From Candidatus Solibacter sp. (GTDB lineage Bacteria > Acidobacteriota > Terriglobia > Bryobacterales > Bryobacteraceae), in the NCBI GenBank assembly GCA_025463045.1, contig JAOAPT010000009.1, positions 1-32,042 of the forward strand: a stretch of DNA of 32,042 bases, given 5' to 3'. Below are positions 24,293-28,068 of the stretch, in pieces. The first letter of the stretch is position 1, and every line of letters begins with the position of its first letter. The notes under the pieces are model-generated. The model ran no database searches and was not told the origin of the DNA. It was given only the letters and a program-made list of their open reading frames with translations. The position numbers and the translations under genes are program-made.

Positions 24293-25170
24293 ATCGAGTA
24301 CAGCCACTCCTCCTGCTCCCGCAACAGATTCCACGCACCTTCCAGGGTAATCCTCTCAAAGGCCGCCTGATCGCGCGGCCGCAACTGCCCCAGCTTCCAA
24401 AAATCCGCCGAGATCACATTGGCAGGCTTCGGATATCCGCCCGTGGTCTGATGCTCCACGAACAATACGATTGGCTGTCCGTCCGGCGGCGCCTGCACCG
24501 CGCCGAGCGGCACCCCTTCCGTAATCATGTGGCCGCCCGGCGCCGCCAGCGGCGAGCCCTTGAGCCGGATTCCCATTCGATTCGTCTCCTCGCTCACTAC
24601 GTAGGTGCCACGGTACAGCTCCTCTCCGAACCATCGCGCCTGCGGCCCGGCGGTCGCGCGAAGGTACGCCGTCCCGCTTTGCACCGGAGCGCCACGCGCC
24701 GGCCCGCGCGGCTTCCGCACCACCGCGCCTCCACTTGCGAGGCGATCGCCCTTCCTGAGCGGCCGCCCGCCGACGCCCGTCATCACGTGCACCGACGCAC
24801 TCCCCATCGTGAGCGGGACGTCGAGCCCGCCGCGCACCGCGAGATAACAGCGCGCCCCATTGCGTGCCGCGCCGCATCGCACCACATCGCCCGAGCGCAC
24901 CGTCGTCGCTTCCCAGAGCGGCACGTTCGCGCCGAAATCTGCGCCCGCCAGCGCGATCACTCCATCGCCTTCGACCGCGAACTCGCCGCCCGCAAGCGTC
25001 ATCTCGAGCGCCGGAGCATTCTCCGCATTCCCTGCCAGCAGATTCGCCGCGCGCAGTGCAACCGGATCGGCCGCACCCGATGCCGAGATCCCATACTGCG
25101 CGAAGCCAAAGCGTCCCAGATCCTGCACGGTCGTCAGCAGGCCCGGCGAGATGACGTGAAGCCAGGTCAG
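24289..25170 (-). CDS. pxpC: 5-oxoprolinase subunit C (biotin-dependent carboxyltransferase-like)
   Basis: [42 protein letters not shown]; probable CTG start at 25168-25170 with GGAGG at 25178-25182; ATGA overlap with pxpA. Confidence 0.85.
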
Positions 25171-25817
25171 ATGCGAGCCTCCACGAACCGCACCCGGTCG
25201 CCCATCCGCAACAACGGCGGCGGCGATCCCTCCAGATCGAACAGCGTCATCGTGGTCCGCCCGATCAGCCGCCATCCGCCCGGAGAGGACAGCGGATAGA
25301 TCCCCGCCTGCGCACCGCCGATCGCCACACTCCCGACCGGCACGTGTTTTCGCGGTGCGGACAGTCGAGGCGTCGCCAGTTCGGGCGGCAGTCCGCCGAG
25401 ATACGGAAAGCAGGTCGAGAATCCGACGAAGTAAACCAGGTATTCGGCGGCCGCATGCAGTTCCACGACGCGCGCTTCGCTTAACCCCGTATGTCGTGCC
25501 ACGTCTCCAAGGTCCGGCCCGAACTCGCCGCCATACCGCACCGGGATCTCGACATGACGCGGCTCAGGCGGCGCCTCATGCTTGTGCGTCGCCTCCCGCT
25601 CGCGAATCATCGCCGCGACTTCGGCGTGCGAGCGCAGCCGCGGATCGAAATCCACCAGCACGGAAGTGTACGCCGGATGCAGATTGAGAATCCCGCGCAC
25701 ACCTTCGAGACATCGCGTCAGGCGCGCCACCGCCAAGTGCGTTTCGAACGTTATCTCATCGCCGAACGAAATCAAGAGCGAGCGATCGCTCGCGGGACGG
25801 ATCTCCATTAGTTCCAT
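25167..25817 (-). CDS. pxpB: 5-oxoprolinase subunit B
   Basis: 216 aa; [24 protein letters not shown]...[10 protein letters not shown]...[57 protein letters not shown]. Confidence 0.94.
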
Positions 25818-25868
25818 CTCTCAGTGGGACAGGCCATCGTTACTTGTGGCCCGTCAACCCGGGCGTTC

Positions 25869-25887
25869 CGCCGCAAACTTCGCGGCG
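25869..25887. repeat. Hairpin CGCCGC-AAACTTC-GCGGCG
   Basis: Perfect 6-bp arms upstream of pxpB. Confidence 0.5.
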
Positions 25888-25904
25888 AAAGACCCCTCAC
25901 ACAG

Positions 25905-25962
25905 AGCCGCGACCGTGAGGGAGCGGTGGCCGCGTGACCACCGCTCCGTAACCGTCGCGGCT
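25905..25962. repeat. 58-bp palindromic element
   Basis: AGCCGCGAC (905-913) pairs with GTCGCGGCT (954-962); GGAGCGGTGG (920-929) pairs with CCACCGCTCC (938-947); 8-nt loop. Confidence 0.75.
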
Positions 25963-25973
25963 CCGATTGGGGT

Positions 25974-26140
25974 GCGTTTTTCAACGGAGTTCTCCATGGC
26001 CCCGTTCGGGGCCGCAACAAGGGATGAAAATGCACGATGCTTCTTGGCGCGTAATTTTCAACGGAGTTCGCCATGGCCCCGTTCGGGGCCGCAACAAGGG
26101 ATGAAAATGCATCATCGCTTTTAGGCGCGTCATTTTCAAC
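25974..26140. repeat. Tandem ~77-bp repeat of hairpin units (two full copies plus a degenerate third)
   Basis: TTTTCAACGGAGTTC[T/G]CCATGGCCCCGTTCGGGGCCGCAACAAGGGATGAAAATGCA occurs twice; TCAAC anchors at 25981, 26058 and 26136; each unit has GGCCCC-GTTC-GGGGCC. Confidence 0.88.
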
Positions 26141-26244
26141 AGAGCGCCGAGCGCGTCCCGGAAGACAGCGCCCCTTCTCACAGTCGCGGCCGCCAATGAT
26201 CTTTCCATCCCGTCAATGTCGCCGCGCCTCCATTTCAAGCGATC

Positions 26245-28068
26245 TTACCACCGGCAGAGTATGAGAGCCGCGATGAGCCCGGCAATCGTCAGCCCCAAGC
26301 CCCAATACACCGACGCCGGCCGGTAGAAGAACTCGATCCTGTGCCGCCCCGCGTCGACCCGCACCGCGCGCACCGTATCGAGTTCCTGCACCGGACGCCG
26401 CGCACCATCCACTCGCGCGCGCCATCCGGGATAGAACGCATCGCCCACCCGCACCAGCCCGGGACTCGCCATCTCCACTTCGATTACGACACGCTCCGAA
26501 TTCCGCGAGATCACGCGAGAGTAGTCCGCCGTCACCGCCTCCGCGATCCGCGGATCGCTCCACACCTTCAGCCCGCTCCGCGATGCGAAGACCTCTACTT
26601 GATTCGGTGACGACGCCTTCCGCGCTACTCTATAGCGAATCCCGTAAATCCCCGGCGTCTCCTCGCGGCCGAGCATCCGGTGCACGCGCACCGGCATCGA
26701 ACTGACCGCCCCGCCGAACTGTTCGATCCCATAAAGGTCGCCGAAGTTATACGGCACCTCGTTGTCGTCGAAGTCCACCCGGAACCATCCGGGCCGCGCC
26801 TTCAGAAATTCCGCGATGTCCGACTGCGCCCGCACCATCTCCGTGTACGATCCCGGCCGATCGAACCGCGCCAGCCGCGGCGCGTTATACACCGCTTCAC
26901 CCAGGATCAGCACCAACGCAAGCGCACCAACCCACCATCGCCGGAAGTAGGCGATCCCGAGTGCCGCCAGCACGGCGATTCCCAGATTGAACAGCACGAT
27001 CGCGAATGCCGGCTCGCGCGCCTTCTCCACCATCGGCACGAAGCGGTAGATCAGCCAGTACGGCGGAAAATCTCCGCCGAGCGCAATCAAGAGGCCGCCC
27101 GTCGCGACCGCTGCCAACCAGCGCACTGCCGCGTCTTTCCGCCGCCACCACACCGCGGCGAGCGCGAACGCCAACGCCACGAACCCGACGTGCGGATTCA
27201 CATGCAGCGCGATCCCCGGCAGCACAATGCCAGGTGCAATGCTCCACTGCAACGAGTACTGCGCGTGCACGGCGTATGGCACAGGTTCGCCCCAGCGCAA
27301 GGGCTCCGGCGCGCCTGCCCAGCGCAGCGATTGCCTGGCGTACTCGATCGCCGGCAGCACCTGGACCGCCGAGACGGCCAGCCAGATCGCGAAGAAGATC
27401 GCCGCGTGCCGGAGAGCCCCGCGGCGCCACGCAAGCGCCACATGCGCGACCCAGAGCGCGCCCACCAGCACCGCCGTGAACGTCGGCACCACATGATGTC
27501 CGCTCAGGAACGCCATCCCCAGCGCCGCACCGCATAGCGCCGCGCTCGCCCGCACACGTTTGCCGCGCACCACCCGCGCGAAAAACAGGAACACGACGGG
27601 CGTCCAGATCGCCGTCATCAGAATCTGCGGCCAGTCGATGTGCCCCACGAAGCCCATCAGGCCGAACATCACGCCGCCCGCAACACTCGCAACCTGCCCC
27701 GCCCCGAGATCGCGGCAGAGCGCGTAGCACGCCACCGCCCCGAGCCAGTGAATCAGCACCCAATACCAGTGCAGTGTCGAAATCGGAATATGCCCGTCGC
27801 GCAGTGGCATCGCGAAGAGGATCCAGTTCAGCGGATTCGTGATTCCCGGCTGCACCTGCCCGATCAGCGTGTGCCCCGCCCATTCGTATGGGTCCCAAAG
27901 TGGAATCCTTCCCGCGTGGAATTCGCGCGCCTGAAGGTCCAGCCACGGACGGACGACGTTCGCCTGGTCGGGACCTTCGAGCCACGTCCACTCGTGCGAG
28001 ACCGTCAGTTTCCAGTAAAAGCCGGCCGTCAGCAGAAGCAGCGCGAACAGCGCCGACGGTGTGCGCAC
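26245..28068 (-). CDS. YfhO-like multi-TM membrane protein (putative glycosyltransferase-type)
   Basis: 607 aa with many TM segments, GRIPLWDPYEWAGHTLIGQVQPGITNPLNWILF, and C-terminal VRVGDAFYPGWRARVDGARRPVQELDTVRAVRVDAGRHRIEFFYRP typical of YfhO-type proteins. Confidence 0.75.
   Translation of the reverse strand: MRTPSALFALLLLTAGFYWKLTVSHEWTWLEGPDQANVVRPWLDLQAREFHAGRIPLWDPYEWAGHTLIGQVQPGITNPLNWILFAMPLRDGHIPISTLHWYWVLIHWLGAVACYALCRDLGAGQVASVAGGVMFGLMGFVGHIDWPQILMTAIWTPVVFLFFARVVRGKRVRASAALCGAALGMAFLSGHHVVPTFTAVLVGALWVAHVALAWRRGALRHAAIFFAIWLAVSAVQVLPAIEYARQSLRWAGAPEPLRWGEPVPYAVHAQYSLQWSIAPGIVLPGIALHVNPHVGFVALAFALAAVWWRRKDAAVRWLAAVATGGLLIALGGDFPPYWLIYRFVPMVEKAREPAFAIVLFNLGIAVLAALGIAYFRRWWVGALALVLILGEAVYNAPRLARFDRPGSYTEMVRAQSDIAEFLKARPGWFRVDFDDNEVPYNFGDLYGIEQFGGAVSSMPVRVHRMLGREETPGIYGIRYRVARKASSPNQVEVFASRSGLKVWSDPRIAEAVTADYSRVISRNSERVVIEVEMASPGLVRVGDAFYPGWRARVDGARRPVQELDTVRAVRVDAGRHRIEFFYRPASVYWGLGLTIAGLIAALILCRW

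Follow-up and report, generated by a model that had tools for sequence, protein, structure and literature searches.

The window (the whole stretch of 32,042 nt that we have analyzed) contains a tract of repeats in the gap between two genes of the reverse strand. The tract lies upstream of the start of a pxpB-like gene (25167..25817) and downstream of the stop of a gene coding for a 607-aa membrane protein (26245..28068). These two genes are 427 nt apart in the window (25817-26245) and overlap (GTGA) in G005, a genome of the same genus. We have looked for an orthologous empty site of the window locus: this syntenic relative is without the whole 427-nt gap, and no clean pair of empty and filled sites was found. 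As the flanking genes overlap in G005, the comparison shows the gain of the whole gap, not precisely that of the element.

The left part of the tract consists of two REPs. One of them (GAGCCGCGACCGTGAGGGAGCGG, 25904..25926, forward strand) has a 5' foot CAGA, of the CnGA type, at 25902-25905; the other (25941..25963) is on the reverse strand, with a CGGA foot at 25965-25962 of that strand. They form a 60-bp palindrome (25904-25963, GAGCCGCGACCGTNAGGGAGCGG), which is REPIN-like: two REPs in inverted orientation, with a DNA fold z of -5.7. To the right of the palindrome is a REP flank which we call F (CGATTGGGGTGCGTTTTTCAACGGAG, 25964..25989, forward strand) and which ends in a GGAG joint (25986-25989). 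Two head-to-tail units follow (25990-26144), both complete when cut at the GGAG joint; the inverted REP pair adjoins unit 1 on the left. This unit (25990..26066, 77 bp, forward strand) is a two-hairpin module, belongs to a subfamily that we call B, and ends in AACGGAG. Unit 2 (26067..26144, 78 bp, forward strand) ends in AACAGAG, which corresponds to a decayed GGAG joint. Hairpin 1, also on the forward strand, is found at 25998..26013 in unit 1 (GGCCCC GTTC GGGGCC) and at 26075..26090 in unit 2. Hairpin 2, likewise on the forward strand, is found at 26025..26060 in unit 1, where its arms are TGAAAAT (26025-26031) and ATTTTCA (26054-26060), and at 26102..26138 in unit 2, where they are TGAAAATG (26102-26109) and CATTTTCA (26131-26138). 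It is supported by the fold and by covariation across genera in unit 1, and by covariation across genera in unit 2.

The original prediction described a tandem repeat with a 77/78-bp spacing, and such a repeat is present. Two direct repeats of 68 nt (25967-26034 and 26044-26111) are 91% identical with a spacing of 77, and a 28-nt repeat family has three copies in the window, with spacings of 77 and 78. The decayed third unit that had been proposed is in fact the right end of unit 2 (ATTTTCAACAGAG, 26132-26144), with unrelated sequence beyond. In the window, each GGCCCC hairpin does have arms of the type ATTTTCA...TGAAAAT on its two sides (TTTTTCA or ATTTTCA on the left), but these are not terminal inverted repeats. 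When 103 units are aligned, the left arm proves to be conserved only in its inner part, TTCA/TGAA; the outer positions pair in 23-77% of the units. TGAAAAT pairs stably with the ATTTTCA which follows it on the right within the same unit, as part of the second hairpin. We have therefore rejected a MITE with terminal inverted repeats: the outer arms are not conserved among units, and the arms belong to an internal hairpin. A REPIN-like reading had also been suggested. This holds for the family, which is dispersed and REPIN/BIME-like, but the unit itself is neither a REP nor a REPIN. The REPIN is the 60-bp palindrome, upstream of the stretch which that prediction covered; the unit is attached to this palindrome as a distinct module with two hairpins.

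The genome which we have examined has 7.7 Mb in 1038 contigs and is 92% complete. A 34-nt core of the unit has 97 matches in it with up to three mismatches (none in the reversed control), which is far more than chance would give, and BLAST finds 53 places. A profile built from these matches detects 126 units, distributed over 81 tracts: 45 tracts have one unit, 28 have two, 7 have three, and 1 has four. These counts are lower bounds, because many tracts end at contig ends. The possibility that only the copies in the window exist may thus be set aside: the genome-wide search reveals a dispersed family. No called ORF contains a unit, though 81% of the examined sequence is coding according to our gene calls, which come from a simple codon-usage caller. 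Only one of the 32 gaps which carry units lies between divergent genes, compared with 17 of the 47 control gaps, which have a length of 150 bp or more (P = 7e-4). When the left context of the 103 units with a left flank is considered, 58 have a REP within 70 nt and 30 have another unit; many of the remaining 15 are preceded by a decayed REP. A related module, D, has 32 copies in this genome. D and flank F look as if they were opposite ends of a single module whose second-hairpin loop holds the REPIN (TGAAGAAC...CCAATC / GATTGG...GTTCTTCA), and at one locus (L176) both ends are joined without a REPIN. On the basis of these sequences, we read flank F as the probable right end of a D-type module which carries the REPIN in its second-hairpin loop.

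When folded as single-stranded DNA, unit 1 has exactly two main hairpins. If the sequence of unit 2 is folded on its own as DNA, an alternative pairing wins over the second hairpin. Among 17 modules from four genera, 92.8% of the cells in paired columns can pair, compared with 83.2% after shuffling. Both sides have changed in 24 cells, against a shuffled mean of 8.4, and none of 500 shuffles reaches this number. When the partner is slid by one column, pairing falls to about 50%. The significance of the covariation is overstated by the shuffles, because the modules of any one genome are related to each other; the slid controls are free from this weakness. Both hairpins carry compensatory changes across genera. 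Within this genome alone, changes in hairpin 1 break pairs and are not compensated, as would be expected for a subfamily that is young and homogeneous. Judging from these sequences, it is the structure of the module which is conserved between genera, and we see no sign that the module encodes anything. No match at the gathering score of Rfam 15 was found in the window or in ten module loci.

The exact 78-bp unit sequence is confined to this species, with diverged relatives in other genera of the family. The exact unit has only chance-level BLASTN matches in 150 relatives, and the exact core is absent both from viral contigs and from genome_contigs (GTDB r220, which may omit the genome of the window and very near ones). 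Subfamily B was not detected in eight genomes of the same genus, either by BLASTN or with a covariance model. This model gives weak repeated matches in one other genus (G029), which correspond to modules that share this plan but have diverged in sequence: GGAG | n(2-7) CATGG - hairpin 1 - CACCAAAGGnnATGAA - hairpin 2 - TTCAnnGGAG |. A degenerate core pattern has matches in 10 of 400 relatives, from eight genera, and none in the reversed control. In four genera (this one, those of G029 and G082, and the one that includes G187, G205, and G216), the first module is found at the same point of the REP. Typically, it begins directly after the 5' half of the REP (...GACCGTNAGGGAG| or a slight variant of it). 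At the other end, several tracts finish with the remainder of the host's own REP, which is CGGT, or TCGGTGC in hosts whose REP has this sequence. In our genome, this start is true of module D; subfamily B follows flank F instead. Modules in a REP context are preceded by GGAG and have a single orientation; the search at the window locus gave no orthologous empty site for comparison. The two types of module in G029 are present in both orders. Two-hairpin sequences which resemble the module are also found outside REPs, without the GGAG joint, in G009 (L346) and G038 (L339, L347, L353, and L359). Those in G038 are preceded by AACCTGTCGG and end in ...GTTTTCGACCGTGCCCCACA.

The REP which adjoins the unit is abundant, with about 518 copies in this genome and 9-167 in eight others of the same genus. 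Copy number thus spans 9 to 518 within one genus, and G001, with no detectable class 3 RAYT, still has more than 160 copies. The foot, formed by the bases before GAG, is CnGA in about 166 of 170 REPs, and is not the canonical 5' GT[AG]G tetranucleotide of the REPs of class 2 RAYTs. The genome has a single Y1_Tnp gene, which codes for 164 aa and is flanked by this same REP, so the cognate RAYT that had been predicted does exist. The protein matches PF01797 over the cut-off, and has a significant match to the NCBI model NF047646 (REP_Tyr_transpos), below the cut-off of that model. Its motifs NHVH, WA (RWARHG), and YVVAEQ are those which PMC6006769 gives for class 3 TnpAY1, and agree with the pattern of this class: a Y1 core with the HUH motif NHVH, W[TA], and the Y motif YV[VI][AENY]EQ. 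H87, H89, and Y147 are invariant across homologues, Q152 nearly so. A search of PDB by sequence with the RAYT gave nothing, and a profile search only unconvincing matches; its likeness to PDB structures had to be established by fold comparison. The AlphaFold model of a 72% identical homologue (L245, pLDDT 85) has 4er8 as its best PDB match, followed by IS200/IS608/ISDra2. 4er8 is TnpAREP, a REP-associated tyrosine transposase, bound to a REP hairpin.

Other class 3 loci show a similar arrangement. Inverted repeats are found on both sides of the gene in 42 of the 56 loci with both flanks, against 1 of 157 control comparisons. Their hairpins follow a constant plan (stem-GA-2 bp-GNNA loop-2 bp-GA-stem), present in 35 of 64 loci when 0.1 are expected after shuffling, and the stems are compensated (CCGC/GCGG, CCCC/GGGG, GCGC/GCGC; CC/GG, GC/GC). 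The opposed GA/GA mismatches and the GNNA loop make this an unusual plan, which is kept from Acidobacteria to Planctomycetes (flanks of L245-L324). At L178:2330-2600 (genome contig C185), the stretch that separates the REP from the 3' end of the RAYT gene contains a tandem array of about a dozen copies of a short unit, about 18-20 bp long and similar to GTGTGTTCGTTGCGAATGC. The six module-bearing genomes which were part of the RAYT search (G000, G009, G016, G029, G038, and G055) all have a class 3 match, compared with 29 of the 121 genomes searched, a comparison which is not corrected for relatedness. Since the REP flanks the only Y1/HUH transposase of the genome, which is a class 3 TnpAY1, the locus can be assigned to a type of REP/RAYT system which is already known. 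Judging from the motifs and the modelled fold of the protein, and from the flanking position, CnGA foot, and high copy number of the REP, both the REP part and the RAYT are members of the class 3 system. According to Quentin et al. 2018 (PMC6006769), class 3 TnpAY1 come from Planctomycetes, Acidobacteria, and Proteobacteria, with atypical flanking hairpins and a CnGA foot; there are about 600 copies of class 3 REPs in Solibacter usitatus Ellin6076, a genome with three class 3 genes, and class 3 RAYTs are proposed as intermediates between IS200 transposases and REP transposases.

The tandem arrangement itself may be examined by comparing units. The original prediction considered that the whole 77-bp block had been duplicated. 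The two units of the window are only 88% identical over the module, like random copies taken elsewhere (the mean of all unit pairs is 87%), which does not support a recent duplication. In 17 adjacent pairs the mean identity is 0.896, compared with 0.885 for shuffled partners (P = 0.04), and the adjacent unit is the best match in only one pair of the 17. Neighbours in an array are hardly more alike than copies elsewhere, so a fresh local duplication is not supported as the origin of the tandem. A fixed dimer which spread as a block finds no support either, as the first and the later units of arrays show the same degree of likeness (0.866 / 0.866 / 0.865) and form no classes. A CRISPR array is rejected: the intervals between hairpins are alike and form part of the unit. 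In one array, two adjacent units are 99% identical (L167:3049 and 3132), so slippage or recent duplication also occurs. Two histories fit these data: either the units joined at GGAG in separate events, or the arrays are old and have undergone gene conversion. We prefer the former.

Our main reading, to which we assign a probability of about 0.68, is that the locus is a REP/RAYT mosaic of Bryobacteraceae (Candidatus Solibacter-like), in which an inverted REP pair is joined to two head-to-tail noncoding modules that would be spread by the RAYT machinery. The class 3 RAYT, a putative HUH/Y1 single-strand nuclease, would cut and rejoin REP DNA when it is exposed as single strands. The modules may spread as single strands by means of the same machinery, joining 3' of GGAG. 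IS200/IS605 elements join 3' of a fixed tetranucleotide in a comparable way. Each module ends in its own GGAG, so we propose that the target is recreated at every insertion, building head-to-tail arrays of non-identical units. The action of the RAYT on the modules and their mobility are what we infer from position and structure. Two results count against this reading: the search for orthologous sites gave no clean pair of one empty and one filled, and the module-like sequences of G009 and G038 are found outside REPs, with no GGAG joint. In a more specific and tentative version, the module would be a miniature transposon of the single-strand type, with two covarying hairpins, living as a parasite of REPs. 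It would insert 3' of the GGAG in the REP stem with the class 3 RAYT acting in trans, and would regenerate its target at its right end, which would account for the head-to-tail arrays. We consider this version a possibility at somewhat less than even odds.

The main rival is recombination between the direct repeats which end in GGAG. Arrays would gain and lose units through replication slippage or unequal crossing-over between TTCAACGGAG / TTCAGGGGAG at the module ends, and gene conversion would preserve the likeness of the copies, with no transposase acting on the module. All units are bounded by such near-identical repeats, neighbours in an array resemble each other marginally more than shuffled partners do, the L167 pair is nearly identical, and gene conversion after unequal recombination at TTCAxxGGAG repeats predicts a pattern much like the observed one. 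Nevertheless, the single modules in 45 separate tracts, the position in the REP shared by four genera, and the presence of both orders of the two G029 modules are left unexplained, and we consider this explanation unlikely. An origin as a miniature derivative of another insertion sequence which targets REPs, such as one of the IS110/IS1111 type, and not of the RAYT, is very doubtful. REP-targeting insertion sequences are known (PMC1525189), and the module is found at one fixed point of the REP. However, no parent element was found in searches not aimed at IS110-type genes in particular, and two hairpins with GGAG at each boundary are closer to the ends of IS200/IS605.

Two other explanations suppose a function for the unit. 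It might be kept by selection as a 3'-end structure (a terminator, an mRNA stabiliser, or a small RNA), copying being secondary. Its avoidance of divergent gene pairs and the covariation of its hairpins across genera agree with this, and some relatives resemble bidirectional terminators (L364: AAAAACCCGCC...GGCGGGTTTTT). Tolerated insertions, however, would be expected to avoid promoters just as much, and the uncompensated changes in hairpin 1 within the genome, the lack of an Rfam match, and the absence of subfamily B from the eight genomes of the genus make this improbable. The unit might also be part of a repeated small protein. An ATG is well spaced after the GGAG and kept in 97 of 103 units, GGAG TTCTCC ATG GCC... 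resembles a ribosome-binding site and start, and 78 bp correspond to 26 codons. Codon position 1 is the most variable and codon position 3 the least, yet 45 of 95 units have an in-frame stop; the T run varies in length, and the length of hairpin 1 changes by 1-2 nt from one relative to another, so that the frame shifts. A protein-coding repeat is refuted in the main by these stops and length changes, and we give it hardly any credence.

Returning to the REP/RAYT mosaic, the existence of relatives in other genera and the compensating changes suggest that the module is a structured passenger of a known REP/RAYT system. A two-hairpin module bounded by GGAG on both sides appears to be undescribed in the literature we have covered, mainly that which is openly readable. 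The spreading of REPs by RAYTs is still poorly understood. Here a class 3 system is accompanied by a second structured noncoding module, nested at a fixed position in the REP; this is seen in several genera, and the modules form tandem arrays. These modules may be used as a natural set of substrates in order to learn what a RAYT cuts and joins, and the prediction is that joining would take place at the GGAG joint.

Several known systems may be compared with this locus. The BIMEs of Escherichia coli combine REPs with intervening motifs in mosaics which are intergenic and partly tandem. The window locus is likewise an intergenic REP mosaic which is partly tandem. It differs from BIMEs (described in PMC3733652) in having another type of REP, without GTAG, and an intervening module that is structured and has GGAG joints. 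As in REPINs (Bertels and Rainey 2011, PMC3116915), the 60-bp palindrome consists of two inverted REPs, but a 77/78-bp unit is joined to its right end and the foot is CnGA, not GTAG or GTGG. The agreement with the class 3 TnpAY1/REP system includes the class of the motifs, the phylum, the CnGA foot, a gene flanked by REPs, and hundreds of copies. REPs are described in that system, and the parts of PMC6006769 that we have consulted include no nested or attached tandem 78-bp two-hairpin module. Finally, the module differs from IS200/IS605 elements (IS608, ISDra2) in being noncoding, with a length of 77-130 bp and a movement suggested by position and structure, but it shares with them a hairpin near each end, a fixed tetranucleotide at the junction, a fixed orientation, and, as regards the RAYT of the genome, a related HUH/Y1 protein fold.
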